Below, piece by piece: positions 5,845 to 54,699 of a stretch of 64,000 nucleotides of DNA. The DNA lies in NCBI GenBank assembly GCA_029573725.1, contig JAKQDQ010000178.1, forward strand, positions 401,174 through 465,173, in the 5' to 3' direction. A model generated the notes under the pieces. It was given only the letters and a program-made list of their open reading frames with translations, searched no databases and was not told the DNA's origin. The translations under genes and the position numbers were made by a program. This DNA comes from Verrucomicrobiota bacterium. GTDB taxonomy: Bacteria > Verrucomicrobiota > Verrucomicrobiia > Limisphaerales > JADLHS01. How positions within the stretch are numbered: the first letter of the stretch is position 1; each line of letters begins with the position of its first letter.

Positions 5845-7152
5845 ATGACCTACGCCGAGGCCATCAAATTTCTGTACGAACTGCGGCTGTTTGGGGCCAA
5901 ACTGGGCCTGGAAAATACGTTCGCCCTGGCCGCCCGGGCCGGACAACCCCAGCAGCGCCTGCGCTTCATTCACGTCGCCGGCACGAACGGCAAGGGGTCC
6001 ACCTGCGCGATGTTGGAAGGCATTTACCGTGCGGCCGGGTTGCGGGTGGGCTTGTTCACTTCCCCGCATCTGGTTTCGTTTCGCGAGCGGATGCAGGTGA
6101 ACCGGCAGTGGATCAGTGAAGCCGAGGTCGTGGCCTTGCTGGCCCAAATCCGGCCGTGGCTGGCCACGTTTCCCGCCGCGCATCATCCCACGTTTTTTGA
6201 AGTCGTCACGGTGATGGCGCTGCTGCACTTCGTCCGGCAACAGTGCGAACTGGTGATCTGGGAAACGGGGCTGGGCGGGCGCATGGATGCCACCAACATT
6301 GTGACCCCGCTGGCCAGTGTCATCACGCCCATCAGTCTGGATCATCAACTCTGGCTCGGTGAAACCCTGCCGGAAATCGCGGCGGAAAAGGCCGGCATTA
6401 TCAAGCCCGGCGTACCCGTGGAATCCGCCGCCCAACCGGCCGGGGCGTTGCTCGTGTTGCAGGCGGCAGCCGCCCGCCAGGGCGCGCCTTTTCGGGCGTT
6501 GCCGCCCGGGGCTCCGGCGCCCCCGCCCGGCGCGCTCGCGTTGTCGGGGCCGCATCAACAACAAAACGCGGCGCTCGCTTTGCGCGTGGTGGAGACCCTG
6601 CAGCCCATCCTGCCGGTGCCTCCTGGGGCCTCGGCCCGGGGGCTGGCCACCGTGCAGTGGGCCGGACGCCTGCAAGCGCTCACCCTGCCGGGCGGGCAGT
6701 CGGTTTTGCTGGACGGGGCGCACAACCCGGCGGGAGTGGCGGCACTGACGCAAGTTCTTCGCCGCGCGCCGCCCCCGCGCGGCCGCGTGTTTATTGTGGG
6801 CATCATGCGCGACAAAGATTGGCCGGCGATGTGCCGCCAACTGCTGCCGCTGGCGCGCCTGATCCTGTTCATTCCCGTGGGCAGTGACCGCACGTTATCT
6901 CCGGAAATCGCCGTGGCGTGGTGTCGTGCCCAGCATCCGCAGGTGGCCTGCGCCGCCGCCGCCTCGCTGCCGGCGGCGTTGCGCCAGGCTCCCGCCGGAG
7001 CGGAGGTGGTCATCACCGGCTCGTTGTATCTGATTGGTGAAGCTCTGGCCTGGTTGTCACCCGAGTTTCAAAGCGTGGCGGCCGAATACGCCCTGAATGA
7101 GTGGGGCGGCCACTCTGCCAGACCACAGGAAGCACTGCCCTGTCACCCCTGA
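5845..7152 (+). CDS. folC: Bifunctional folylpolyglutamate synthase / dihydrofolate synthase
   Basis: 435 residues. FolC joins glutamate to dihydropteroate and then to tetrahydrofolate, using ATP. Visible signatures are the P-loop VAGTNGKGSTCAML near residue 48, the folate-binding region LFTSPHLVSFRERMQVN, and ETGLGGRMDATN, all in family order. The C-terminal Mur-ligase-like domain contains LDGAHNPAGVAAL. The ATG at 5845 gives the standard MTYAEAIKFLYEL beginning. It follows pyrG by 16 bp. A Pro/Ala-rich linker around residues 220-240 is longer than in compact relatives, but the gene appears intact. Confidence 0.95.
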   Translation: MTYAEAIKFLYELRLFGAKLGLENTFALAARAGQPQQRLRFIHVAGTNGKGSTCAMLEGIYRAAGLRVGLFTSPHLVSFRERMQVNRQWISEAEVVALLAQIRPWLATFPAAHHPTFFEVVTVMALLHFVRQQCELVIWETGLGGRMDATNIVTPLASVITPISLDHQLWLGETLPEIAAEKAGIIKPGVPVESAAQPAGALLVLQAAAARQGAPFRALPPGAPAPPPGALALSGPHQQQNAALALRVVETLQPILPVPPGASARGLATVQWAGRLQALTLPGGQSVLLDGAHNPAGVAALTQVLRRAPPPRGRVFIVGIMRDKDWPAMCRQLLPLARLILFIPVGSDRTLSPEIAVAWCRAQHPQVACAAAASLPAALRQAPAGAEVVITGSLYLIGEALAWLSPEFQSVAAEYALNEWGGHSARPQEALPCHP

Positions 7153-7256
7153 ACGGCCGCCGGCGCTGGACTCACATCCGGTCGCGCGGCGCCGGCCCGG
7201 AGGCGGCGGGTGTTTCGATTGACTCCCTCCCGTTTGGTTTCCAGTATGGCCGCGGA

Positions 7257-7985
7257 ATGCGGAAGACCATTTTAGTTCTGGCCATTTTCGGCAGCGCGGT
7301 GATGGCGCCGGCGGCGCCGCATCAATACAAATATCTTCCTGCGGATTGTTCCGCCCTGGTCGGCCTGCTGCCGCCGCCGCCCGCCACCAACTCTCCGGCA
7401 GGCATTGCCGATTTGGAAACTGTGCTGCAGGTGCAGGCGGACCGCACGCCCGGTCAGGTCCAGCGCGCGCGGCGGGTGGCCAGTCAATCGGTGTTTACCT
7501 TCGCGCAACCCGTTTTGGGTGGATGGTTCAACCCGACCAACTGCCCGGCCACGCAGCGCTTGTTGGCGGAAATCACACGCGAAAGTCAGACCATCGTGGA
7601 CGACCAGGTCAAACCGCACTGGCAACGCCTTCGTCCCTATCAGGCTTCGCCGGACGTCCGGCCGATTGTGGGCCGGCCCGGCAATACTTCGTATCCCAGC
7701 GGACATGCTGCGGTCGCCGCCTTGTGGGGCACCATTTTGTCCGCCGCGTTTCCAGACCAGGCGGCGGCGTTCCAGGCGCAGATTCGGGAGGTGATGTGGT
7801 GCCGGGTGATTGGCGGCGTGCATTATCCCAGCGACACCGCCGCGGGAGCGAGACTCGGCACCGCCATTGCCCACGCCATGCTTGCCGCGCCCGCCATGCC
7901 CGAAACGCTGGAAACAATTCGCGCCGAAGCCGCTCCGTTCCGGAACCCGGCAACCACACGATCCGCCGCGCCCGTGGGTCAATAA
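7257..7985 (+). CDS. Class A non-specific acid phosphatase (PAP2 superfamily), secreted
   Basis: 242 residues with an N-terminal signal peptide (MRKTILVLAIFGSAVMAPAA). The three-part phosphatase signature is complete: KPHWQRLRP (K-x6-RP), YPSGHAA (PSGH) and CRVIGGVHYPSD (R-x5-H-x3-D, with Cys where the family usually has Ser). These residues form the phosphohistidine active site of PhoN/PhoC-type enzymes, which release phosphate from organic monoesters in the periplasm. The start at 7257 is chosen because it begins the signal peptide; the open frame upstream overlaps folC and its downstream gap. It is convergent with the DUF885 gene. Confidence 0.93.
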   Translation: MRKTILVLAIFGSAVMAPAAPHQYKYLPADCSALVGLLPPPPATNSPAGIADLETVLQVQADRTPGQVQRARRVASQSVFTFAQPVLGGWFNPTNCPATQRLLAEITRESQTIVDDQVKPHWQRLRPYQASPDVRPIVGRPGNTSYPSGHAAVAALWGTILSAAFPDQAAAFQAQIREVMWCRVIGGVHYPSDTAAGARLGTAIAHAMLAAPAMPETLETIRAEAAPFRNPATTRSAAPVGQ

Positions 7986-8034
7986 CGCTCCGCCGCGGCG
8001 GCCGGCCGGCCCGCGGGCACTCCGCCGGTGGCGG

Positions 8035-9792
8035 TTAATTCGCCAGGTGTGCGCGGACCAGTTCCGGCAGATATTTCACCGGCACGGAGCCCGCTTGCAA
8101 TACGGCCTCGTGGTACCGGGCCAGGTTGAACTTGTCGCCCAGCTCCCGCTGCAGGGCCTGGCGCAGGCGTTGATGGGCCAGATATCCGACGAAATACGTG
8201 CTCAATTGCGTGGAGCTTTGTTTGGCGCGAATGATCTTGAGCCGCGCCTCGCCCTCCGATTGGAAGGCCTCTTCCACCATCAGCCGCATCGCTTCGTCGT
8301 CGGTCATCGTGGTGCAGTGCATCCGGTAATCGAGGAGCGCATTGACGACGGTGCGCAGGTAGAACTTGAGTTGCATCAGGCGGAGGCGGAGGTCGCCCCC
8401 GCCGTAGCCCTGGTCCAGCATCATGGACTCGGTGTAAACCGCCCAGCCCTCGATGTACACGCCCGAGGCCAGGATTTTCCGGATCAACGAGGGGTTCCGG
8501 TTGGCGTATGCCAGTTGCACATAGTGCCCGGGATACGCCTCGTGAATGGTCAGGATTTGCAGCAGGTGGGTGTTGTATTCCTCCAGATAGGTTTGCACGC
8601 GGCGCGCGTCCCAATCCGCGGGCGGCGGGCTCACCGCATAATAACTTGCGGCGCGCGGATCCAAGGGCGGCGCACTCTCGAGGTACGCCACGGAGTTGCC
8701 GCGGTTGAACTCGGGCATTTCAATCACCCGGCAGGCATCCGGCTCGGGCAGGCGCAAAATCTTCCGCTCGCGAATGAACGTCTGAATGCGGCTCACCGTG
8801 GCTTGCGTGTCTGCCAGCAGCCGGTCCGGTGGACCGTGTTCGGCGCTGGCGGCGGCAATCACGCGGGCGATGGTTTCGCGGCGGCCGGCGGCATTCCCGG
8901 GCGGCAGCGGTTGCGGCGGGAAATAGCGGCTCCACAACTGGCGCGCGATGACGTACAAGTCGCGTTGCACCTGCACCAATTCAGCTTCGGCCGCGGCCAC
9001 CACCTGCTCGGCGCTCCAGCCCGCATCCAGCACCAGCTCCAGTTTCCGGGCGAATTTGCGTTTTCCAATGCGCCAGTTCCCGGTCGCGCGCCGGCGCAGT
9101 TCAGTTTCCAGAAAGTGCTGGTAATCCTGCAACGCCGTGACAATGGGAGCGGCGGCGGCTTCGAGTGACGCCCGCTGTGACGTCGGCCCGGCGAGCTGGA
9201 AGAGGCCGGTCTCATAGAACGTCAGCGCCCCGCGATTCTGGCGGATGGCGGTTTCCAGCACGGCTTCCGGCGGATGCGTCAGGGTTTGTCGGGCGATGGC
9301 AATGACCCGGGGGATGGCGCGCATCCGTGCGATGCAGTTGGCGAGGTTGGTCTCCGCCGGCAGTGTAGACTGGGTCAGCAGGCGGTAAACACTGTCGCTG
9401 ATGTAGGCGCCGTACGTGCGTGGGTCGGTTTCAAACGGGCGGAAGCTGGCGTCCAGCCAGAGCTGGCGTCGCAGTTCCTGCTGCAGGATTTCAAAATCCA
9501 TCTGGGCCGGGCGGGACAACTTTCGGTAGGCGATGCGCCGCGGCAGTTCCCGCAGCGTTTGCCGGGTCAATTTTTGCCAGCGGGCCCGGGCGGCGGGGGT
9601 GATGTCCTCCAGTTGCGCATCGAAGCGGTGATCGCCCAGCGCCGAGGCGGTGGTGGGTTGTTGTTGGAAAACCTGCTCGAGATATTCCCGAAAAAAAGTT
9701 TCGAGACGCGCATCTTCCGTCGCCCGCAGCGTTGAGCCGCCCAGCATCCATTCCACCAAGAGCAGTAAGAGCAGTAAGCGCGCTTGCATCAA
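8035..9792 (-). CDS. DUF885 family secreted metallopeptidase-like protein
   Basis: 585 residues with a leucine-rich signal peptide (first ~24 residues), so exported. The protein is mostly helical. Near residues 417-423 it carries HEAYPGH, the HExxPGH motif typical of the DUF885 family and reminiscent of zinc carboxypeptidases/gluzincins, followed ~22 residues later by GVYIEGWAVYTE, which can supply the third ligand. The family is predicted to be metallopeptidases and few members are characterised; the substrate is unknown. The start could be either of the two adjacent ATGs (9792 or 9789). It is followed by a convergent acid phosphatase gene. Confidence 0.9.
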   Translation of the reverse strand: MMQARLLLLLLLVEWMLGGSTLRATEDARLETFFREYLEQVFQQQPTTASALGDHRFDAQLEDITPAARARWQKLTRQTLRELPRRIAYRKLSRPAQMDFEILQQELRRQLWLDASFRPFETDPRTYGAYISDSVYRLLTQSTLPAETNLANCIARMRAIPRVIAIARQTLTHPPEAVLETAIRQNRGALTFYETGLFQLAGPTSQRASLEAAAAPIVTALQDYQHFLETELRRRATGNWRIGKRKFARKLELVLDAGWSAEQVVAAAEAELVQVQRDLYVIARQLWSRYFPPQPLPPGNAAGRRETIARVIAAASAEHGPPDRLLADTQATVSRIQTFIRERKILRLPEPDACRVIEMPEFNRGNSVAYLESAPPLDPRAASYYAVSPPPADWDARRVQTYLEEYNTHLLQILTIHEAYPGHYVQLAYANRNPSLIRKILASGVYIEGWAVYTESMMLDQGYGGGDLRLRLMQLKFYLRTVVNALLDYRMHCTTMTDDEAMRLMVEEAFQSEGEARLKIIRAKQSSTQLSTYFVGYLAHQRLRQALQRELGDKFNLARYHEAVLQAGSVPVKYLPELVRAHLAN

Positions 9793-17251: not shown

Positions 17252-20200
17252 ATGACACCTCCTGGTTTTCCCTCCCGGCAAGGCTTGTACGATCCCGCCC
17301 ACGAACATGACGCCTGCGGGGTGGGGTTTGTGGCGGACATTCGGGGTCGCAAGTCGCACACGATCCTGCGGCAGGCCCTGCAGGTCTTGAATAATTTGCA
17401 GCATCGGGGCGCCAGTGGCAGCGAAATCAACACCGGCGATGGCGCCGGGATTCTGCTGCAAACGCCGCACGAGTTTTTGGTGGCCGCCTGTCGGCGGGAA
17501 CAGATCTCCCTGCCCGGCCCGCGGGAATACGGCGTCGGCATGGTTTTCTTGCCGCGGAATCGGGCGGATCGTTACAAGTGTGAGAAGCTGTTTGAGGAAA
17601 TCGTGGATGCCGAAGGGCAGACCGTGCTGGGGTGGCGGCCCGTGCCGACCTGCAACACGGGATTGGGGGATTGGGCGCGGCAGAACGAGCCGATCATCCG
17701 GCAGGTTTTTATTGGCCGCGCCCCGGGCCTGGCCGACGATCTGGCGTTTGAGCGCAAGCTCTATATCATCCGCAAACTCGCAGAAAAGGGCATTCGATAC
17801 TCCGGCATCAAAGGATGCGAACAGTTCTATATTCCCAGCCTGTCGTACAAAACCCTCATCTACAAGGGCATGCTGTTGCCCAGTCAACTCGAGGCGTATT
17901 TTCCCGATCTCAGCGATCCGGCGCTGGAAACCGCGCTGGCCCTGGTGCATTCACGCTTTTCGACCAACACCTTCCCCAGCTGGGAGCGCGCGCACCCGTA
18001 CCGGTATGTGGCGCACAACGGCGAGATCAATACTTTGCGCGGCAATGTCAACTGGATGCTGGCGCGTCAGGCAACACTGGTATCCGAGGTCTTTGGTGCG
18101 GACCTGAAAAAACTGTTTCCGATCATCAACGAGGATGGCTCCGACTCCGCCATGTTTGACAACGTGCTGGAGTTTCTGGTGCTGGCGGGCCGGTCGCTGC
18201 CGCAGGCGATGATGATGATGGTTCCGGAGCCCTGGTCCGGCCACGAAGGCATGAGTGATGCAAAGAAGGCATTTTATGCGTATCACGCCTGTTTGATGGA
18301 ACCCTGGGATGGGCCGGCCAGCATGGTGTTCACCGACGGCATCCAGATCGGCGCCACGCTTGATCGGAATGGCCTGCGTCCGTCGCGGTACTACATCACC
18401 AAGGATCATCTGGTGGTGCTGGCCAGCGAAGTGGGTGTGCTGGATGTGCCGGCGGAGCGGGTGCTGCACAAGGGCCGGCTGCAGCCCGGTCACATGTTTC
18501 TGCTGGACACCGCCCAGGGCCGGGTGATTGCCGATGCGGAGATCAAGGCGACGATCGCCGCGGAACAGCCCTACCGGCTGTGGCTGAACACGCACCAGAT
18601 CACGCTCGCAGCCCTGCCGGAGCGGGCGGTGCCGCCCTCCGACCCCGCAACCCTGTTGCCGCGGCAGCGGGCATTTGGTTATACATTCGAGGACTTGCGG
18701 CTGATTCTGGCACCCATGGCGCGGGACGGCGCGCAACCCATCGGTTCCATGGGCACCGACACGCCCCTGGCAGTGCTCTCCAACCAGCCCCAGTTGCTTT
18801 ACAACTACTTCAAGCAACTGTTCGCCCAGGTCACCAATCCGCCGATTGATGCCATTCGGGAGGAGATTGTCACCAGCACCGAGACCGTGCTTGGGGCCAG
18901 CGGCAACCTGCTCCAGTGCGTGCCGGAAAATTGCGCCAACATCAAGATCCCGGGCCCGATTTTGTCGAACGAGGATTTTGCCAGGCTGCAGCACTGTGCG
19001 TTGCCGAACTTCAAGCCGGTCACGCTGCCGATATTGTTTCCGGCGGCGGCTGGCGCGCGGGGGTTGGAGCGCGCCGTGGACCAGCTCTGCCAGCAAGTCA
19101 CCCAGGCGATTCGCGCGGGGCGGACGTTCATCATTTTGTCGGATCGCGGCGTCAATGCGGAGCAGGCGGCGATTCCGGCGCTGCTGGCGGTGTCAGCGGT
19201 CAATCATCATCTGATCCGGACCGGCACGCGCACGCGCGCCAGCCTGCTGCTGGAATCCGGCGAGCCGCGCGAGGTGCATCACTTCGCCTTGCTGCTCGGT
19301 TACGGTGCCAGTGCCATCAACCCCTATCTGGCGTTTGAATCACTCGATGATCTGATCCGGCAGGGAATGTTGACCGACATTCAGCATCCGCAAGCGGTCC
19401 GGAACTACCTGAAGGCGGCCACGAAAGGCGTGGTGAAAACGATGGCCAAGATGGGCATCTCGACGATCCAATCGTACCGGGGCGCGCAGATTTTTGAGGC
19501 GATCGGGCTCAATTCGTGGGTCATTGACAAGTATTTCACCTGGACCGCTTCGCGCATCGAGGGCATCGGCATCGAGGAACTGGCGGAGGAAGTCTTGCGC
19601 CGGCATCGGCACGCGTTCCCCGGACGCCCCGGGCCGGACCCCACGCTGGACACCGGCGGCCAATACCAGTGGCGGCACGACGGTGAACATCACCTGTTCA
19701 ATCCGGAAACCGTCCAGAAGCTGCAACTGGCCGTGCGCACCGACAATTACCGGGTGTTCAAGGAGTATTCCACGGCCGTCAACGATCAATCGCGGCGCCT
19801 GTGCACCCTGCGCGGGTTGTTCCAGTTCAAGTATGCGCCGACACCCCTGCCGCTTGACGAGGTGGAATCGGTTGAGAGCCTCGTGCGGCGGTTCAAGACC
19901 GGGGCCATGAGCTACGGCTCGATCAGTCAGGAAGCTCATGAAGCGCTGGCCATCGCCATGAACCGGCTCGGCGGCAGGAGCAACACCGGCGAAGGCGGCG
20001 AGGACCCGGCCCGGTACGTCCGCGAACCCAACGGGGATTCGAAGAATTCCGCCATCAAGCAGGTGGCCAGCGGCCGGTTTGGCGTGACCAGTCTGTACCT
20101 CACGCAGGCCCGGGAATTGCAGATCAAGATGGCGCAGGGCGCCAAGCCGGGCGAGGGCGGCGAATTGCCGGGCACGAAGGTGTATCCGTGGATTGCCAAG

Positions 20201-21841
20201 ACGCGCGGCACCACGCCCGGGGTGGGGCTGATTTCGCCGCCGCCGCACCACGACATTTACTCCATCGAAGACCTGGCGGAGCTCATCCATGATCTGAAGT
20301 GTGCGAACTCGGAAGCGCGGATCAGCGTGAAGCTCGTGGCCGAAATCGGCGTCGGCACCATTGCCGCCGGGGTGGCCAAGGCGCATGCGGATGTGGTGTT
20401 GATTTCCGGACATGACGGCGGGACCGGCGCCTCGCCGCTCTCCTCCATCAAACATGCCGGCGCCCCGTGGGAACTGGGGCTGGCGGAAACGCAACAAACC
20501 CTGCTGCTCAACAATCTCCGCAGCCGCATTGTGGTCGAAGCGGACGGCCAGTTGAAAACGGGCCGGGACGTGGTGATTGCCGCCTTGTTGGGTGCGGAAG
20601 AGTTCGGATTCGCGACGGCGCCGCTGGCGGCCTTGGGCTGCATCCTGATGCGGGTTTGCCACCTCAACACCTGCCCGGTGGGAATCGCGACCCAGGACCC
20701 GCGCCTGCGGGCCCGGTTTGCCGGGGCCCCGGAACACGTGGTCAACTTCATGCGGTTTATTGCCCAGGAAGTTCGCGAACTGATGGCGCAGCTCGGATTT
20801 CGCACCCTCATGGAAATGGTGGGGCGAACCGACAAACTGGAAATGCGGCCGGCCGTGGAACATTGGAAGGCGCAGGGGCTGGACTACGGGAGAATCTTTC
20901 ATCAACCCGCACTGCCGCCTGACGTTGGCCGGCATTGCCAGATGGCGCAGGATCACGGGCTGGCCAGGACTTTTGACCGGCGTGAGTTGTGGGAGGTGTG
21001 CCGGCCGGCCTGGGAACACGGCCGACCGGTGCAGGTGACCCTGCCGGTGCGCAACATTGATCGGGTCATCGGCACGCTGATCGGCAGCGAGATTACCCGG
21101 CGGCACGGGGCGGAGGGGTTGCCGGCAGACACGGTGCAGCTGAATCTGCACGGGAGCGCCGGCCAGAGTTTCGGTGCGTTCGTGCCGCGCGGGCTGACGC
21201 TCACCCTGGTGGGTGATGCCAATGATTATCTCGGCAAAGGGTTGAGTGGCGGAAAAATCATCGTCCGGCCGCCGGACGCGGCCACCTTCGCGGCCGAAGA
21301 GAATGTAATCATCGGCAACGTTGCGCTCTACGGCGCCACGAGCGGCGAGGCCTACATCCGCGGCGTGGCGGGCGAACGATTCGCGGTGCGCAATTCCGGC
21401 GCCCAGGCGGTGGTGGAAGGCGTGGGTGATCACGGGTGCGAGTACATGACCGGCGGACAGGTGGTGGTCTTGGGGGGCACCGGACGCAATTTTGCCGCCG
21501 GCATGTCGGGCGGCGTGGCGTACGTGTTCGATCCCGCCGGCGAGTTTGCGCCACGGTGCAACCGGGCCATGGTGGACCTGGAAAGCCTGACCGATCCGGA
21601 CGAGGTGGAAACGGTGCGCCGGCTGATCGCCCGGCACCACGAGTACACCGGCAGTGTGCGCGCCCGGGATATTCTCGCCCAATGGGCGCCGGACCGGTTT
21701 GTAAAAGTGATGCCGAAGGACTATCGCCGCGCGCTGGCTGCATTGCAGCGCGCCCGGGCGGAGGGGCTGGAGGGCGAGGCGGCGGTGCTGGCAGCGTTCG
21801 AGAACAATGCGCGGGAACTCGCGCTCGCAGGAGGACATTGA
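17252..21841 (+). CDS. gltB: Glutamate synthase (NADPH) large subunit
   Basis: 1529 residues, full length. It transfers the amide of glutamine to 2-oxoglutarate. Layout: N-terminal class II glutaminase with the nucleophile Cys in [14 protein letters not shown] (the preceding ~20 residues would be a cleaved propeptide), a central domain, the FMN-binding synthase barrel ([12 protein letters not shown], then [19 protein letters not shown]), the 3Fe-4S cysteines in [15 protein letters not shown] near residue 1140, and the C-terminal GXGXG beta-helix ([16 protein letters not shown]). It starts 5 bp after the Lrp-like regulator and ends 1 bp before gltD, which takes its ribosome site from within this gene. 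Product goes to amino-group donation throughout the cell. Confidence 0.98.
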
Positions 21842-21842
21842 C

Positions 21843-23318
21843 ATGGGCAAGATCACCGGATTTTTGGAGTTTTCACGGGAGCTGCCCGAGGACCGCAAGC
21901 CGGAGGAACGGCTCCGGGACTGGCAGGAATTTCACCAGCCGATGTCGGAAGACAAGCTCCGGCAACAGGGCGCGCGTTGCATGGATTGCGGCATCCCGTT
22001 TTGTCATACGGGCAATCTGCTGGCCGGCATGGCCAGCGGTTGTCCCATTCACAACCTGATTCCGGAATGGAACGATCTGGTGTACCGCGGGCTGTGGCGC
22101 GAGGCGCTGGAGCGGTTGCACAAGACGAACAACTTTCCCGATTTCACCGGCCGGGTGTGTCCGGCCCCCTGCGAGGGCTCATGTGTGCTGGGCATGCACC
22201 AGCCGCCCGTCACGATCAAGAACCTCGAATACGCCATCATCGAGAAGGGGTTTGCGGAAGGGTGGGTCACGGCTCAGCCGCCCGCCCAACGCACCGGCAA
22301 GTCGGTGGCCATTGTGGGCAGCGGCCCGGCGGGATTGTCGTGCGCGGCGCAGTTGAACCGGGCCGGACACCTGGTCACGGTGTACGAGCGGGCGGACCGG
22401 ATCGGCGGTTTGCTGATGTACGGCATCCCGAACATGAAACTCGATAAGGCCGTGGTGCAACGGCGGGTGGATTTGCTGGCGCAGGAGGGCATCCGGTTCG
22501 TGACGCGCTGTGAAGTCGGCCGGGACTTGCCGGCCGGAAAGCTCTTACAGGATTTTGACGCGGTGGTGCTTTGTGGCGGGGCAACCCGCCCCCGCGATTT
22601 GGCGGTGCCGGGGCGCGAACTGTCCGGAGTCCACTTTGCGATGGAATTTCTCACGGCCAACACCCGGCATTTGTTGGACCCGCAGGTGCCGTACATCAAC
22701 GCTGCCGGCAAGGACGTGATCGTCATCGGTGGCGGGGACACCGGCACGGATTGTTGTGGCACGGCCCTGCGACACGGCTGCCGGAGTCTGATCCAGCTCG
22801 AAATCATGCCGCAACTGCCGCCGGAGCGGGCGGCGGATAATCCGTGGCCGCAGTGGCCGAAGGTGCATAAGCTGGATTATGGCCAGGCGGAGGCGGCGGC
22901 GGTGTTTGGGGCGGATCCGCGGCAGTATTTGGTGACCGTGAAGCAGTGTCTTGGTGCCGGGGACGTGCAGGCCCTTGAGATCGTCCGCGTCGAGTGGAAG
23001 AAGGACGCTCAGGGACGGTTGACTCCGGCAGTGGTGGCCGGCAGTGAGCAGCGGCTGCCGGCGCAGCTGGTCCTGCTGGCAATGGGCTTTTTGGGGCCGG
23101 AGGATGGACTCTTGAAGGCGCTACAGGTCGAACAGGATGCGCGCAGCAACGTCAAGGCCGAACACGGGAAGTTTACGACCAACATCCCGGGAATCTTCGC
23201 TGCGGGAGACATGCGCCGCGGACAAAGTCTGGTGGTTTGGGCCATCAACGAAGGCCGGGGGGCCGCGCGGGAATGTGACCGGTATCTGATGGGCGAGGTT
23301 TCGGAGGCGTTGCGGTGA
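21843..23318 (+). CDS. gltD: Glutamate synthase (NADPH) small subunit
   Basis: 491 residues. It passes electrons from NADPH through FAD and Fe-S clusters to GltB. The N-terminal cysteine-rich domain is intact ([47 protein letters not shown]); then the FAD-binding [17 protein letters not shown] and the NADPH-binding [13 protein letters not shown]. The ATG at 21843 is set by AGGAGG at 21829-21834, eight bases upstream and inside the end of gltB, indicating translational coupling. The next gene, a sigma-54 activator, begins 44 bp downstream. Confidence 0.98.
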
Positions 23319-23362: not shown

Positions 23363-24967
23363 GTGAAACCCTTCGCGAGTGAAACCAAGCCGGAATGGGT
23401 GCGGTTTACCGAGGAGGTCTGTGCCTGGGCGGCGGAAAAGGGCGGCCGGGTGGCGGATGGGCTGGGTCTGCTGCTGAACATTGCCTACATGCTGGAAAGC
23501 CGCCCGAACTTGCGCGCGGTTCTCGCGCCGATTCTGGCGCAAATGGAACAGGTGATGGCCTTTCAGCGCGGCCTCATTCTCATTCTGGATTCCAAGCACG
23601 ACGCCATTTCGATCACTGAGACGATCGGCCTGCCCCGCAGTGTCGCCCCAACGGAGTATCTCAAGCGGTGCCGTCCGGTGGTGGACCAGGTGATTCGCAC
23701 CGGCGCCCCGCTGGTGTTGCCGGAATTCGCCCCCGCCGCCCCCGCTCCAGCCGGAGTCCCGGAGGTGGCGCCTGAAACAATGGCGCTGCTTTGTGTGCCG
23801 GTGAAATGCGGCGGGGAGGTGGTGGGTTGCCTGAGCGTGGAACGGCGGCGGCATGCGGAAGCCAGCCTGGCGGCCGATCAGCGGCTGCTGTCGCTGGTGG
23901 CCAACGTCATGGCTCAAAGTGTCCAATCCCACCGCCAGACGGCCGACCACCTGGAGACGTTGCGCCGCGAGAACGAACGCCTGCAGGAGCAGCTGGAATC
24001 GAGCCTGCGGCCGCCGAACCTGATCGGCAACTCCACCGGGATGCGCTCTGTCTATCTGCACATCGAGCAGGTGGCGGGCAGCAGCACCACCGTGTTGGTT
24101 CGCGGGGAATCCGGCGTCGGCAAGGAACTGGTGGCGCGCGCGCTGCATGAGCAGAGTCCGCGTCAGGGGCGCGCCTTCGTCAAGTTCAACTGCGCCGCCC
24201 TGCCGGAATCCATCATCGAGAGCGAACTGTTCGGTCACGAACGGGGCGCCTTTACCGGGGCCATCGCCATGCGCCAGGGGCGGTTTGAAATCGCCAATGG
24301 CGGCACGCTGTTCCTGGATGAAATCGGCGACGTGTCGCCCGTCACACAGGTCAAACTGTTGCGCGTGTTGCAGGAAAAGGAATTTGAGCGGGTGGGCAGT
24401 CACACCCCGATCCGCACTGACGTGCGGATCATCGCCGCGACCAGCCGGAATCTCGAAGAGATGATCGAACAGGGCAAGTTTCGCGCGGATCTCTACTATC
24501 GGCTCAATATTTTCCCAATCTATGTACCGCCGTTGCGTGAGCGGAAATCGGATGTTCTCCTGCTCGCCGATCATTTCGTCGAAAAGTTCAGTCGCAACAG
24601 CCGCAAGCCGGTGCGCCGGATTTCCACCGCGGCCATTGATTTGCTCATGAGCTATCATTGGCCCGGGAACGTCCGTGAACTTGAAAATTGCCTTGAACGG
24701 GCCGTGCTGCTCTGCCAGGGCAATGCCATCGAGGCGCACCACCTGCCGCCCACGTTGCAGAAGCGGGAGGCGACCGAGCCGGGTGCGGGAGGAACACTGC
24801 AGGCGGCCGTGGCGGCGTTGGAATATGAAATGATTGTTGCCGAACTCAAAGCCAGCGACGGCAACATGGCGGCCGCCGCGCGGAGTCTGGGTCTGACTGA
24901 ACGTCAGATCGGCCTGCGCGTGAAACGATTCGGCATTGACTTCAAGCGTTTTCGACGCGGCAGTTAA
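23363..24967 (+). CDS. NifA-type sigma-54-dependent transcriptional activator (GAF-AAA+-Fis HTH)
   Basis: 534 residues. Residues ~45-190 form a GAF sensor domain; then the AAA+ domain with Walker A GESGVGKE at 248-255, the sigma-54-contacting GAFTGA loop at 295-300 and Walker [12 protein letters not shown]; the C-terminus is a Fis-type helix-turn-helix ([20 protein letters not shown]). This order is that of NifA/NorR-like activators. A GTG start at 23363 follows an excellent ribosome site, GGAGGTGA at 23352-23359. No nif genes are present. Between gltBD and the amtB-glnK-glnA operon it most likely activates the sigma-54 promoter at 25138 in response to nitrogen status. What the GAF domain binds is unknown. 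Confidence 0.93.
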
Positions 24968-24979
24968 TGCGGTCTGCAC

Positions 24980-24999
24980 AAGCTACGTTTCCGTAGCTT
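24980..24999. terminator. Perfect 8-bp inverted repeat after the sigma-54 activator gene
   Basis: AAGCTACG / CGTAGCTT with a 4-nt TTTC loop, starting 12 bp after the stop codon. It may be the activator gene's terminator (only a weak T-tract follows). Because it also lies ~140 bp upstream of the sigma-54 promoter, it could be an enhancer-type binding site. The sequence cannot decide. Confidence 0.45.
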
Positions 25000-25137
25000 T
25001 CCTGCCGCGTTCCCACCTGAATGTCGCTTTGCTACGGCGAAGAGTTCGGCGCGCAAGGAATCTGCGCGCAAAATTTTCTGCAGTTTTCCTGAGGATTCCG
25101 GCGTGTTTTTACGCGGGCCGCATTTGTTCCGGGCGGA

Positions 25138-25153
25138 TGGCATGACCCCTGCA
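25138..25153 (+). promoter_or_regulatory. Sigma-54 (-24/-12) promoter for the porin-amtB-glnK-glnA operon
   Basis: TGGCATGACCCCTGCA has the invariant GG-N10-GC spacing and matches the TGGCAyr-N4-TTGCw consensus at most positions (C for the first T of the -12 box). It lies 60 bp upstream of the porin-like start codon, downstream of a gene for a sigma-54 activator, and ahead of ammonium-assimilation genes that are classic sigma-54 targets. No TGT-N10-ACA NifA site was found upstream. Confidence 0.75.
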
Positions 25154-25212
25154 CAAAGACCGGCGAGTTGGCGATGCAACTCATTTAACCCGTGCAAACC
25201 ACCGACAGCTCC

Positions 25213-25989
25213 ATGAAACGCGTTTATCTTTGGGAATGGCTGGCCACGCTGGCGATCGTTACGCCGGTCGCGTGTTCAGGAGAGCTTCGCGAACCGGAGG
25301 CCACGACAGAACGTAACTGGAAGGCGGAAGCCGGAGCCGATTACTACAGCACCTACCTCTTTCGCGGGGTGGACATTTCCAAACACCACCCGCTGGCCCA
25401 AACCCGTCTCCTGCTTGAATACAAGCGTTTCACCGCCGCCTACACCGGTTACTACAGCCCGGTGGATCAGCCCGGTTTGAAGTGGTACACAGAACATAAT
25501 TACACGCTCGATTATACGGCGACCTGGGAGCAATTCTCCCTTACCGCCGGGGCGCAATATTATCAGTACCCCAATGGCCGTTCCGGAGTGGATACTTGGG
25601 ACCTCTACGGCGTTCTCGCCTACGATTTTCCGCTCTTAAACCCCAGAGCCACGCTGAACTGGGACGTGGACGAATTCCACACCGGGTACGCGACTGTGGG
25701 CCTCAGCCATGAGTTCGATCTCAGCAAGCCGGCCTGTTTGCCAGAACCAGGCATGCTGACCCTGACCCCTTCCGCCGCGCTGGGAATTGACCTTGGTTAC
25801 AATTCCAGGAAAACACAGGCCAACCTCAACTGGAACGATGTCTTGCTGGGTCTCACTGTCAATCTGGCCGTAACCCGGAACATCTCCCTCCATACCGGGG
25901 TGCTGGCGTCCTTTGCCCTCGATTCGCTTCACGAAATCAACCAAGGCAACGAAGTCATCGGAAATTTTGGCGTCGTGGTCACCTTCTGA
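25213..25989 (+). CDS. Outer-membrane beta-barrel (TorF/gcw_chp-like putative porin)
   Basis: 258 residues from the ATG at 25213, which starts a signal peptide (MKRVYLWEWLATLAIVTPVA); an in-frame GTG at 25192 is the alternative. After the signal the sequence alternates aromatic/hydrophobic and polar residues in ~10-residue strands (DYYSTYLFRGVDISKHHPLA, TLDYTATWEQFSLTAGAQYY) and ends in Phe (FGVVVTF), as outer-membrane barrels do. The FRGVDIS-type motif near the N-terminus recalls the TorF/gcw_chp family of putative porins, often next to glnK-amtB. First gene of the sigma-54 operon, 13 bp before amtB; it probably lets ammonium or another N source across the outer membrane. Confidence 0.8.
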   Translation: MKRVYLWEWLATLAIVTPVACSGELREPEATTERNWKAEAGADYYSTYLFRGVDISKHHPLAQTRLLLEYKRFTAAYTGYYSPVDQPGLKWYTEHNYTLDYTATWEQFSLTAGAQYYQYPNGRSGVDTWDLYGVLAYDFPLLNPRATLNWDVDEFHTGYATVGLSHEFDLSKPACLPEPGMLTLTPSAALGIDLGYNSRKTQANLNWNDVLLGLTVNLAVTRNISLHTGVLASFALDSLHEINQGNEVIGNFGVVVTF

Positions 25990-26002: not shown

Positions 26003-27798
<1,796 letters not shown>

Positions 27799-27828: not shown

Positions 27829-29238
27829 ATGACCTCCCAAGAAGTACTGACACTGTGCAAAAACAAGAATGTTCAACTCGTGGACGTAAAATTCTGCGAT
27901 TTCCTCGGCACCTGGCAGCATTTTTGTGTGCCCATTGCCGAACTCAACGCCGAGGTGTTCGCGGAAGGATTGGGCTTCGACGGCTCCTCCATTCGCGGTT
28001 GGAAATCCATCGAGGCCAGCGACATGCTGCTCCTGCTGGATCCCGACACGGCGATCATTGATCCATTCCCCACCACGCCGACGCTGAGCCTCGTGGCGGA
28101 TGGCGTGGACCCGATGACCCGTGAACCCTACAGCCGCGACCCGCGCAACGTCGCGCGCAAGGCGGAGGCCTATCTGAAAAGCACCGGGGTTGCCGACACG
28201 GCTTACATGGGGCCGGAAGCGGAGTTTTTCATCTTCGACGAAGTGCGGTACGGCCAGACGGCCAACAGCGGGTTCTATTTCCTGGACAGCATCGAAGGCA
28301 TCTGGAACAGCGGCCGGGAGGAGGGCCCGAACCTGGGCAACAAAATCCGCCACAAGGAAGGATACTTCCCGGTGGCGCCGGCCGACACGCAGGTCGAGAT
28401 CCGCAACGAAATGATCAACGTGATGCGCGATTGCGGGCTGCGTGTTGAGCGGGAGCACCATGAAGTGGCGACCGCCGGACAGGCGGAAATTGATCTACGG
28501 TTCAACTCCCTGGTGAAAATGGCCGATGACATGATGCTCTACAAGTACATCGTCAAAAACGTCGCCCGACGCCGCAATAAAACCGTCACCTTCATGCCCA
28601 AGCCGTTGTTCGGCGACAACGGCTCCGGCATGCATACACACCAGTCGCTGTGGAAGAAGGGCAAACCCTTGTTTGCTGGCAATCAATACGCCGGCCTGAG
28701 CGAGATGGCCTTGCACTACATCGGCGGAATCTTGAAACACGCCCGCGCCATGGCGGCATTCACGAATCCCACTGTGAACAGCTACAAACGCCTGACTCCC
28801 GGCTTCGAAGCGCCGGTCAATCTGGCTTATAGTTCGCGCAACCGGTCGGCCGCCATTCGCATCCCGACCTACTCGCCCAGTCCGAAGGCCAAGCGCATCG
28901 AATATCGCCCGCCCGATCCCACGGCGAATCCCTACCTCGCCATGGCGGCCATGTTGATGGCCGGTTTGGATGGCATCCAGAACCGGATTGATCCCGGCGA
29001 GCCCCTCGACAAAAACATTTATGAACTGCCCCCGGAGGAACTCAAGCAGGTTCCCTCCATGCCCGGCAGTCTGACCGAGGCGTGTGACGCCCTCGAAAAA
29101 GACCACGGTTTTCTTCTCAAAGGCGATGTCTTCACCCGGGATGTGATCGAAACCTGGATTGAAATGAAGCGCAAGGAACAGGACCAAATCCGATTGCGTC
29201 CGCATCCCTGGGAGTTCAGTATGTACTACGACGCGTAA
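27829..29238 (+). CDS. glnA: Glutamine synthetase type I
   Basis: 469 residues, dodecameric GSI-beta type. It makes glutamine from glutamate, ammonia and ATP. Signatures: [34 protein letters not shown], the ATP-site [20 protein letters not shown], and NRSAAIRIP. The adenylylation segment [10 protein letters not shown], with the Tyr modified by GlnE, is present near residue 399, and glnE is encoded 4.5 kb downstream. The protein ends [12 protein letters not shown], as expected. It lies 30 bp after glnK and 24 bp before carA, all in one direction. Confidence 0.98.
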
Positions 29239-29262: not shown

Positions 29263-30438
29263 ATGTCGCCCGCCCTGCTTGCGTTGGAAGATGGCTCTCT
29301 GTTCTATGGAGAGTCCATCGGTGTTGCCGGACGGGCCGTGGGTGAGGTGGTGTTCAACACCGCCATGACCGGCTACCAGGAAATTCTCACCGATCCTTCC
29401 TACGCCCGGCAGATTGTCACGCTCACTTATCCGCACATCGGCAATACCGGCACGAACCCCGAGGACATGGAGTCCGACCGGGTGCATGCGGCCGGGCTGG
29501 TCATCCGCGACCTGCCCCACCTCCACAGTAGTTTCCGCGCCACGGAGGCCTTGCCCGATTTCATGCGCCGCCACAAGCTGGTCGGCATCGCCGGCCTGGA
29601 TACCCGCCGCCTCACGCGCCTGCTGCGCGAGAAGGGCGCGCAAAACGGTTGCATCCTCGCGGTGGGCAAGGGGCGCCGGCCCGGGGTTCGGGCCGCCTTG
29701 AAGGCGGCCCGCGCCGTCCCCGGCTTGCAGGGTGCGGATCTGGCCAAAGTGGTCAGCATCAAACAACCCGGCCGCTGGGACGAGGGCTTGTGGGTGTTGG
29801 GCAAAGGTCATGCCCGGCAGCAACGTCCCCGGTTTCATGTTGTGGCGTACGATTACGGCATCAAACGCAATATTTTGCGCATGCTGGCGGCCCGGGGGTG
29901 TCGGATGACGGTGGTGCCGGCGCGGACGCCGGCCGGGGCGGTGCTCAAGCTCAAACCGGATGGCGTGTTTTTGTCCAATGGTCCGGGCGACCCGGAGGCC
30001 TGTGACTACGCGATTGTAGCGATCCGCCGCTTTCTCGACGCCGGCCTGCCCATTTTCGGCATCTGCCTTGGGCACCAGTTGCTCGGCCTGGCGGCCGGGG
30101 CGCGCACCATCAAAATGAAATTTGGTCATCATGGGGCCAATCATCCCGTGCTGGCGGTGCACAGCGGCCGCGTGTTGATCAGCAGCCAGAACCATGGCTT
30201 TGCGGTGGACGAAGCCACCCTGCCACCGAACGTGCGCGTGACCCATCGCTCGTTGTTTGACGGTTCGGTGCAGGGCCTCGAATTCACCGATCATCCGGTC
30301 TTCTGCTTTCAGGGGCATCCGGAGGCCAGCCCCGGCCCACATGACGTGGCCCCGTTGTTCGACAGGTTCATTGCCGGCATGGCAAAGCGCCAGTCCGCGG
30401 GCCGCCCCAAGCCGAAAGGGAAGCCCATCGCCTCGTGA
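29263..30438 (+). CDS. carA: Carbamoyl-phosphate synthase small (glutaminase) subunit
   Basis: 391 residues. It hydrolyses glutamine and channels ammonia to CarB for carbamoyl phosphate (arginine and pyrimidine synthesis). The N-terminal CPSase domain has [19 protein letters not shown]; the class I glutaminase domain has the nucleophile in [13 protein letters not shown] and the His/Glu in [13 protein letters not shown]. It lies 24 bp after glnA, so glutamine made by GlnA feeds directly into this step. A basic, Ala/Pro-rich segment between the domains (around residues 140-155) is slightly unusual. Confidence 0.97.
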
Positions 30439-30478
30439 CAGATTGGCGACCTGCAATCGTCCACCGGCCCCTGATCCT

Positions 30479-33724
<3,246 letters not shown>

Positions 33725-54383: not shown

Positions 54384-54699
54384 CATGGCCCGCAAGTGAC
54401 GCGTGGAGTATCCCGGGGCGATTTATCCTGTGATGAATCGTGGCGAGCGCCGGGAGGAGATTTTCAAAGATGACCAGGACCGGGAGCGGATGATTGCTGA
54501 AGAATTGCAGCGTCGCAAATGGCGGGCGGGCGGTTTGGCGGCGTGGGCGAAAGGCGACTTGAGCAAGGTGGCAATAGCGGCGCCGGTGCGGGCGGAGACG
54601 GTGGTGACGGTGGCGTGGCTGGCGAACCGATTGCAGATGGGCACGGCAGGCTATGTGAACAACCGTTTGTACCGGTGGCGACAAGGAGTCCTCAGGTGA
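54384..54699 (+). pseudogene. RAYT transposase remnant, copy 1 (internally deleted)
   Basis: The frame reads MARK-stop and then VEYPGAIYPVMNRGERREEI, the N-terminus of a REP-associated tyrosine transposase (Y1/HUH, TnpA_REP). It passes directly to the family's C-terminus (AWAKGDLSKVAIAAPVRAET, then LANRLQMGTAGYVNNRLYRW). The middle ~130 residues, which hold the HUH histidines and catalytic Tyr, are missing. A TGA at codon 5 breaks it as well. An almost identical copy lies at 63227. REP-like motifs follow directly. It forms the left boundary of the restriction-modification-like island. Confidence 0.85.

Follow-up and report, generated by a model that had tools for sequence, protein, structure and literature searches.

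The element TGGCATGACCCCTGCA at positions 25138-25153 (+ strand) of the 64,000-base stretch of DNA analysed here, which we call the window, is probably the sigma-54 promoter of an ammonium operon, activated by the adjoining NifA at two enhancer dyads, and the unit as a whole probably descends from a nifA-nifH junction. The element runs from T25138 to A25153, its GG (25139-25140) and GC (25151-25152) are separated by ten bases, and it has the wider TGGCAY...TGCW context. It begins 170 bp past the stop codon of the activator gene (24967) and ends 38 or 59 bp ahead of the first operon gene, in a gap of 224 bp to the GTG at 25192 or 245 bp to the ATG at 25213, and from the meaning of -12 the operon transcript is predicted to start near 25164. 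The initial annotation had proposed a sigma-54 promoter with correct GG-N10-GC spacing at this place, between a NifA-type activator gene and a porin-amtB-glnK-glnA run. The site is as it described, a candidate element with the right kind of activator adjoining. It had also suggested a search for rpoN, whose absence would have counted against the proposal; the window's genome has one PF04552 match (195.8 bits), so that objection fails.

The -24/-12 motif by itself is at chance level in the window and in the genome, and proves nothing alone. In the window TGGCAYNNNNNNTGCW occurs once against 0.76 expected from shuffles, and TGGCAYGNNNNNTGCW, with at most one mismatch, six times against 7.1 expected, while genome-wide counts are 19 for TGGCAYNNNNNNTGCW and 56 for TGGCNYGNNNNNTGCW, against 46 and 65 for the reversed controls. 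Since the motif is not enriched anywhere, we dropped these counts as evidence, and the case rests on context. The same lack of enrichment speaks for a chance match, in which case the operon would be transcribed from some other promoter or by transcripts running on from gltBD-nifA. However, the position of the element, its enhancer, their spacing and the spacer between the dyads all agree with nifH promoters (see below), no sigma-70-like promoter was found in 24900-25300, and the gap contains a weak terminator-like hairpin (25049..25069, + strand; one found, 0.7 expected) that could end gltBD-nifA transcripts. Simple arithmetic, scaled from the window shuffles, puts the chance of TGGCAYNNNNNNTGCW on one strand of the gap at roughly 0.001, and we regard a chance match as very improbable. 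Another consensus-grade element, TGGCACGAACTTTGCA, was seen at L093:8046-8061 (G000:C71:294045), in the gap ahead of a small secreted-looking ORF that is followed by genes resembling a type II secretion or pilus set.

The operon opens with an ORF at 25192..25989 (+; GTG 25192 or ATG 25213) and continues on the same strand with amtB for an ammonium transporter (26003..27442), glnK/glnB for a P-II protein (27460..27798) and glnA for a type I glutamine synthetase (27829..29238), the last three identified by family scans. The names amtB, glnK and glnA given in the initial annotation therefore stand. The product of the first gene, probably an outer-membrane protein, has no Pfam match and its structure model is unusable (pLDDT 28), so that "porin" stays a guess. 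The T-loop of the P-II protein reads GSEYAVDF and has the tyrosine at which enteric PII is uridylylated. Close behind glnA, with gaps of 24 and about 40 bp, are carA-carB (29263..33724, +; named from sequence), perhaps read from the same sigma-54 promoter as glnA. Directly upstream of the activator gene lie gltB-gltD for glutamate synthase (17252..23318, +; family scan). Facing carB in convergent orientation is a glnE-type adenylyltransferase gene (PF03710, PF08335; 33753-36746, - strand), which means that the window encodes a post-translational control of GlnA as well. The genome has scattered near-copies of a short protein (VDYPGAIYPVMNRGERREEIF...) resembling a REP-associated transposase, among them window 54403-54699, L307:7409-7723 and L307:17445-17759.

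The activator gene (23363..24967, +; GTG start, 534 aa) encodes an arm N-terminal to a GAF domain (49-186), a Sigma54_activat domain (220-386, with lid) and a Fis-type HTH_8 domain (483-523), as assigned by Pfam, and alignment finds the GAFTGA and Walker motifs of the AAA+ part intact. The receiver domain of an NtrC response regulator is absent by Pfam scan, and the best model for the protein is TIGR01817 (NCBIfam nifA), which scores 507.4 bits, under its cut-off of 528.85. An activator of NifA type with GAF in place of the receiver, as the initial annotation had it, is thus borne out. Orthologs were sought in 320 genomes of the order (E <= 1e-105) and found in 16, the window's genome included, eleven of them at 56-73% identity (that of G222 as two fragments) and four at 45-49%. 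All eleven genomes with a 56-73% ortholog (G068, G069, G108, G012, G220, G222, G228, G236, G241, G262 and G272) carry PF00148 nitrogenase-type genes, and the four with 45-49% identical copies gave no PF00148 match. The window's genome, a 187-contig draft that is 96% complete, has no PF00148 match anywhere, and its best match to the nifH model reaches 27.7 bits against a cut-off of 394.35. The annotation's description of the segment as lacking nif genes therefore extends to the genome, and this NifA has no nif genes to regulate in its own genome. The activator ortholog is found in none of the 11 other members of the window's family that were searched, nor does any of them have PF00148 over the cut-off (G161 has one match below it).

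The activator and nif genes lie on the same fetched stretch in eight of the 11 nitrogenase-carrying relatives; these are draft genomes, with genes on the stretches called by a simple codon-usage caller and nif names assigned from sequence together with PF00148 and nifH model searches. The activator is directly before nifH in G220, draG-draT stand between it and the nif genes in G241, G236, G262, G222 and G069 (both families confirmed for G241 by family scan), and nif genes are on its stretch in G012 and G108 too. The nif genes of G228, G068 and G272 are on contigs other than that of the activator. In G272 the nifA gene (L186, G272:C475) is interrupted by a stop, in a genome still with nitrogenase-type genes. 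A tree was made from 14 of the order's activators together with 18 named relatives belonging to other phyla (L227-L239, L241, L243, L245, L258 and L264, from at least 80 loci matched; L240 was dropped) and three paralogs as root, the split gene of G222 and the broken frame of G272 being left out of alignment and tree. The window activator falls in a clade of ten (support 100/100), whose other nine members each have nitrogenase-type genes in their genome, and it is sister to that of G220 (100/99), with an end branch of 0.34 against 0.094 for G220. This nesting and the longer end branch indicate a nif-linked NifA as ancestor of the window protein and a faster rate of change since.

The gap before the operon contains an enhancer of the kind found before nifH in these relatives. 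The first dyad, CTACGTTTCCGTAG (TAC-N6-GTA; 24983..24996, +), sits within a perfect 8-bp inverted repeat (24980-24999), and the same element occurs upstream of the relatives' nifH; the second, CACCTGAATGTC (25014..25025, +), is a degenerate YAC-N6-GTN 30 bp after the first, with an 18-bp spacer (24996..25013, +) between them. In all ten relatives read, the gap before nifH has at least one exact TAC-N6-GTA, and most of these gaps have the pair YAC-N6-GTR, 18 bases, YAC-N6-GTN, usually with the dyads 30 bp apart. The 64,000 bases of the window contain four exact TAC-N6-GTA, one of which is in the activator-operon gap at 24984. The pair was first noticed by visual inspection that included the window; the weight matrix made from seven relatives' nifH enhancers leaves the window out. 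Among 718,446 positions scored in the fetched sequence of that genome (on both strands, with some overlap between loci) the matrix ranks 24984-25025 first, at 23.5 bits; the second score, 22.9, comes from reading this element on the opposite strand, and the next is 17.1. This 17.1-bit candidate, which comes with TGGCACGGAGAAGGCA, lies inside an ORF (L086:10649-11551) and was taken as chance. The training enhancers score 34-40 bits, so the window site is weaker. Held-out nif promoters, read on the promoter strand, score 40.0 and 30.6 (G228), 29.3 (G220), 27.7 (G108), 24.4 (G262), 20.6 (G068) and 19.4 bits (G222), and G069, with 17 bases between its dyads, is missed.

From the first TAC to -24 there are 154 bases in the window, as in G220 and G236, 152 in G241, G222, G262 and G228, 175 in G068, and 186-189 in G069, G108 and G012, so that the enhancer lies 152-154 bp before -24 in six of the ten relatives' nifH promoters and at other distances in four. 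Two of the ten (G012 and G108) lack the GC at -12. TGT-N10-ACA, given as the NifA site of Alphaproteobacteria in PMC4999443, is absent from the window gap and from the nifH gaps of nine of the ten relatives (it is present in G068), and the NifAs of the window's clade seem to use dyads of the TAC-N6-GTA type instead. The perfect palindrome AAGCTACG-N4-CGTAGCTT was rejected as a genome-wide motif, since it is unique and at up to two mismatches has fewer matches than the control; only when read as one half of an enhancer pair does it make sense. A paired pattern, loosened and written so as to include the window, occurs exactly at two places in the genome, the activator-operon gap and C73:99901, and with one mismatch at seven places, the same number as for the reversed control. 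We set the match at C73:99901 aside, as it has near-copies in G236, G228 and G241 that in our reading resemble a conserved coding stretch. Judged by this pattern test, which is not strict, NifA may have a single target in the window's genome.

The likeness to nifH promoters goes beyond the dyads. The spacer of the window is identical to that of G220 at 14 of 18 positions and to that of G241 at 15 of 18, against 6-10 of 18 for the other six nifH enhancers compared, and none of the 127,925 other 18-mers of the window reaches 14. Because the spacer bases should be free to change, we count this likeness as a signal of descent. When the whole gap was aligned locally, the score was reached by none of 300 mononucleotide shuffles for G241 and G236, by one for G228 and by two for G220. 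This test is weak, however, since the porin gaps of G015 and G122 give much the same result (three of 300 each). The nifA-nifH gap of G220, the closest relative, is about 221 bases long against 224 (245 to the ATG) for the nifA-porin gap of the window, and the ammonium operon stands where nifH stands in G220. The window promoter thus has what a nifH-type promoter by descent should have, namely paired dyads at the same spacing and distance and a common sequence outside the motifs. The nested NifA and the shared enhancer, spacing and spacer make the link to NifA stronger than the initial annotation had thought, and a unit of nifA and the nifH promoter apparently now drives ammonium uptake and glutamine synthesis. 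The simplest history that we infer is that nifA and its nifH promoter were placed, or left, before the ammonium operon, by capture rather than by re-evolution.

The operon itself has other affinities. The AmtB of the window groups with those of G058, G122 and G015 (83/99) and its GlnA with those of G122 and G015 (100/99), in neither case with its own family. In G058, G122 and G015 the gene order is porin-amtB-glnK or porin-amtB-glnK-glnA, as in the window, though the first gene differs, being a BBP2 porin in G015 and G122 (L193:10265-11212) and of no known family in the window (25192-25989). The operon and NifA thus each have their own closest relatives, and the history of the locus is mosaic. 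NifA-like proteins of 45-47% identity to that of the window adjoin gltBD-carAB in G015 and G122 and glnA-gltB in G004, all genomes without PF00148 matches, and among the matches listed such proteins also adjoin gltB (L229), carAB (L236) and amtB-glnK (Treponema L232), nif having been sought in these three on the fetched stretch only. In G004 (L080:10908-14447) the activator is divergent from glnA, with gltB behind, and the gap contains TGGCACGCCGGATGCA and a pair of exact TAC-N6-GTA dyads at a distance of 32 bases; in Treponema (L232:10001-13513) the activator is followed by amtB-glnK, and TACTTTTTTGTA and TGGCACGGTTTATGCT, a TAC-N6-GTA dyad and a -24/-12 site, precede amtB. These dyads suggest that the enhancer code is older than the nif link.

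It could be, then, that the window activator comes from an ancient group of NifA-like regulators of ammonium genes and that its lineage never used it for nif control, the likeness to nifH promoters reflecting a DNA-binding code common to the group. The 45-49% identical proteins beside gltBD-carAB or glnA-gltB in genomes with no PF00148, the Treponema copy, the dyads and -24/-12 sites of G004 and L232, and the grouping of AmtB and GlnA with G015/G122 would all fit. In the tree, however, the window protein sits inside the nif-linked clade, beneath three starred forks, with the activators of G004, G015, G122 and L232 all on other branches, and it is the spacer, not the dyads alone, that is common to G220 and G241. 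We therefore think such an origin unlikely, and descent from a nifA-nifH junction the preferred reading.

The promoter might also be worked by a different activator. The window's genome has eight other full sigma-54 activators, seven of them with a receiver domain, and one (L085, G000:C101:25000-39000, at 6192-8613) is an NtrC-like response regulator adjoining a HisKA/HATPase kinase, with NtrC as its best model (TIGR01818, 506.8 bits, below the cut-off of 558.6). This pair is perhaps the NtrBC of the genome. The initial annotation had suggested that nitrogen sensing here may not use NtrB/NtrC, and had proposed looking for their genes; as an NtrC-like regulator beside a histidine kinase exists, albeit below the NtrC cut-off, the absence of NtrBC is not supported. 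This wording is the part of the earlier interpretation that lacks support; the promoter candidate, the NifA-type activator, rpoN and the absence of nif genes remain. Among the relatives' glnK-amtB operons, 15 of 15 have a strict TGGCAY-N6-TGC no more than 400 bp upstream of their first gene, against six of 182 other genes on the same stretches (of the 20 loci fetched, two are truncated at contig ends and another three open with a porin gene). These sites, upstream of glnK or amtB in L194-L200, L202-L205 and L207-L210, are without a NifA enhancer where scanned (none of at least 11 bits in any relative's glnK gap scanned), and no dyad stood out clearly as common to the glnK gaps when one was sought. 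Control of ammonium uptake by sigma-54 therefore seems to be old in the order, with another activator.

On these grounds the promoter at 25138-25153 could be served by an NtrC-like regulator, a mode of control that may also apply to the glnK-amtB promoters of relatives lacking NifA, with the neighbouring NifA acting elsewhere or not at all. The sites in all 15 operons that do not begin with a porin, the lack of a NifA ortholog in all 11 other family members and the presence of the L085 pair agree with such a scheme. Yet the enhancer of the window matches those of nifH promoters and has no counterpart in the scanned glnK gaps of the relatives, and we hold control by an NtrC-like regulator to be rather unlikely. 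NifA control is the better reading at this promoter, although NtrBC may still act in the cell, and the window's genome seems to have changed both the activator and the enhancer of its ammonium operon.

If NifA does control the operon, it would bind at 24983-25025, where the two dyads of TAC-N6-GTA type start 154 bp ahead of -24, DNA looping would bring it to the sigma-54 complex, and ATP-driven opening would start transcription near 25164, the promoter driving porin-amtB-glnK-glnA and perhaps also carAB. By analogy with NifA studied elsewhere, under nitrogen shortage the state of P-II and 2-oxoglutarate would relieve the GAF domain, allowing NifA to open the sigma-54 complex; AmtB, GlnK and GlnA would then rise together, and the P-II product of the operon would close a feedback loop. 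The protein has changed unevenly. Its identity to the G220 activator is 93% in the HTH, 87% in the AAA+ part, 54% in the GAF domain and 46% in the N-terminal arm, and dN/dS against G220 is about 0.18 for the whole gene (0.08 for the AAA+ part, 0.37 for GAF), which places the gene under purifying selection. As the GAF domains of G220 and G236 are only 57% identical, GAF divergence is high among the relatives too and is not by itself special to the window protein. A motif C-R-[VA]-[VLI]-[DKQ]-[ED]-L precedes the GAF domain in all ten nif-linked relatives with a readable arm. In the window its cysteine is replaced by glycine (GGRVADGL), with one other cysteine left in an arm whose length, like those of the relatives, is uncertain because the start codons are. 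This cysteine is absent from the four non-nif relatives too. A sensing role for these cysteines in the nif-linked NifAs is our guess, by analogy with other NifA-type proteins.

The arrangement resembles NifA-sigma54 control of nifH in diazotrophs in its GAF-AAA+-HTH activator, its -24/-12 promoter and its paired dyads about 150 bp upstream. It differs in its target, porin-amtB-glnK-glnA in a genome without nitrogenase genes, in its dyads, which are TAC-N6-GTA and not TGT-N10-ACA, and in the glycine that stands for the nif-linked arm cysteine. NtrBC and sigma-54 control glnK-amtB and glnA in enteric and other bacteria; targets and sigma factor are the same in the window, but the activator has GAF in place of the receiver. 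The nearest systems within the family are the NifA-like activators of G004, G015, G122 and Treponema L232, with nitrogen-assimilation neighbours and, in G004 and L232, the dyads. In Desulfovibrio vulgaris, DVU1949 is a one-component, likewise receiver-less sigma-54 activator with predicted control of nitrogen metabolism and transport operons, nine in its predicted regulon; in the parts of PMC4641369 consulted it is not called a NifA or traced to a nifH promoter. Among the titles and opening lines of abstracts listed by literature searches, we found no description of a NifA that drives amtB-glnK-glnA in a genome without nif.

The presence of NifA is usually taken as a sign of nitrogen fixation, and here NifA is under purifying selection in a genome without nitrogenase, which is a caution against calling diazotrophy from nifA. 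Tied to ammonium genes via what looks like a nifH promoter, it would be a natural case of circuit capture, and the TAC-N6-GTA pairs offer a proposed enhancer code for the NifAs of the window's order. In the broadest reading, for and against which we see about equal weight, a lineage without nitrogenase captured a nif regulator and a nifH promoter as one ready-made circuit that now runs ammonium uptake and glutamine synthesis, and mostly lost the N-terminal cysteines, which in nif-linked NifAs may be used to sense oxygen or redox state; NifA would then be a branch within an older GAF-type family that regulates ammonium genes through TAC-N6-GTA enhancers and extends over several phyla. The window's genome lets one ask what NifA senses where there is no nitrogenase to be protected from oxygen.
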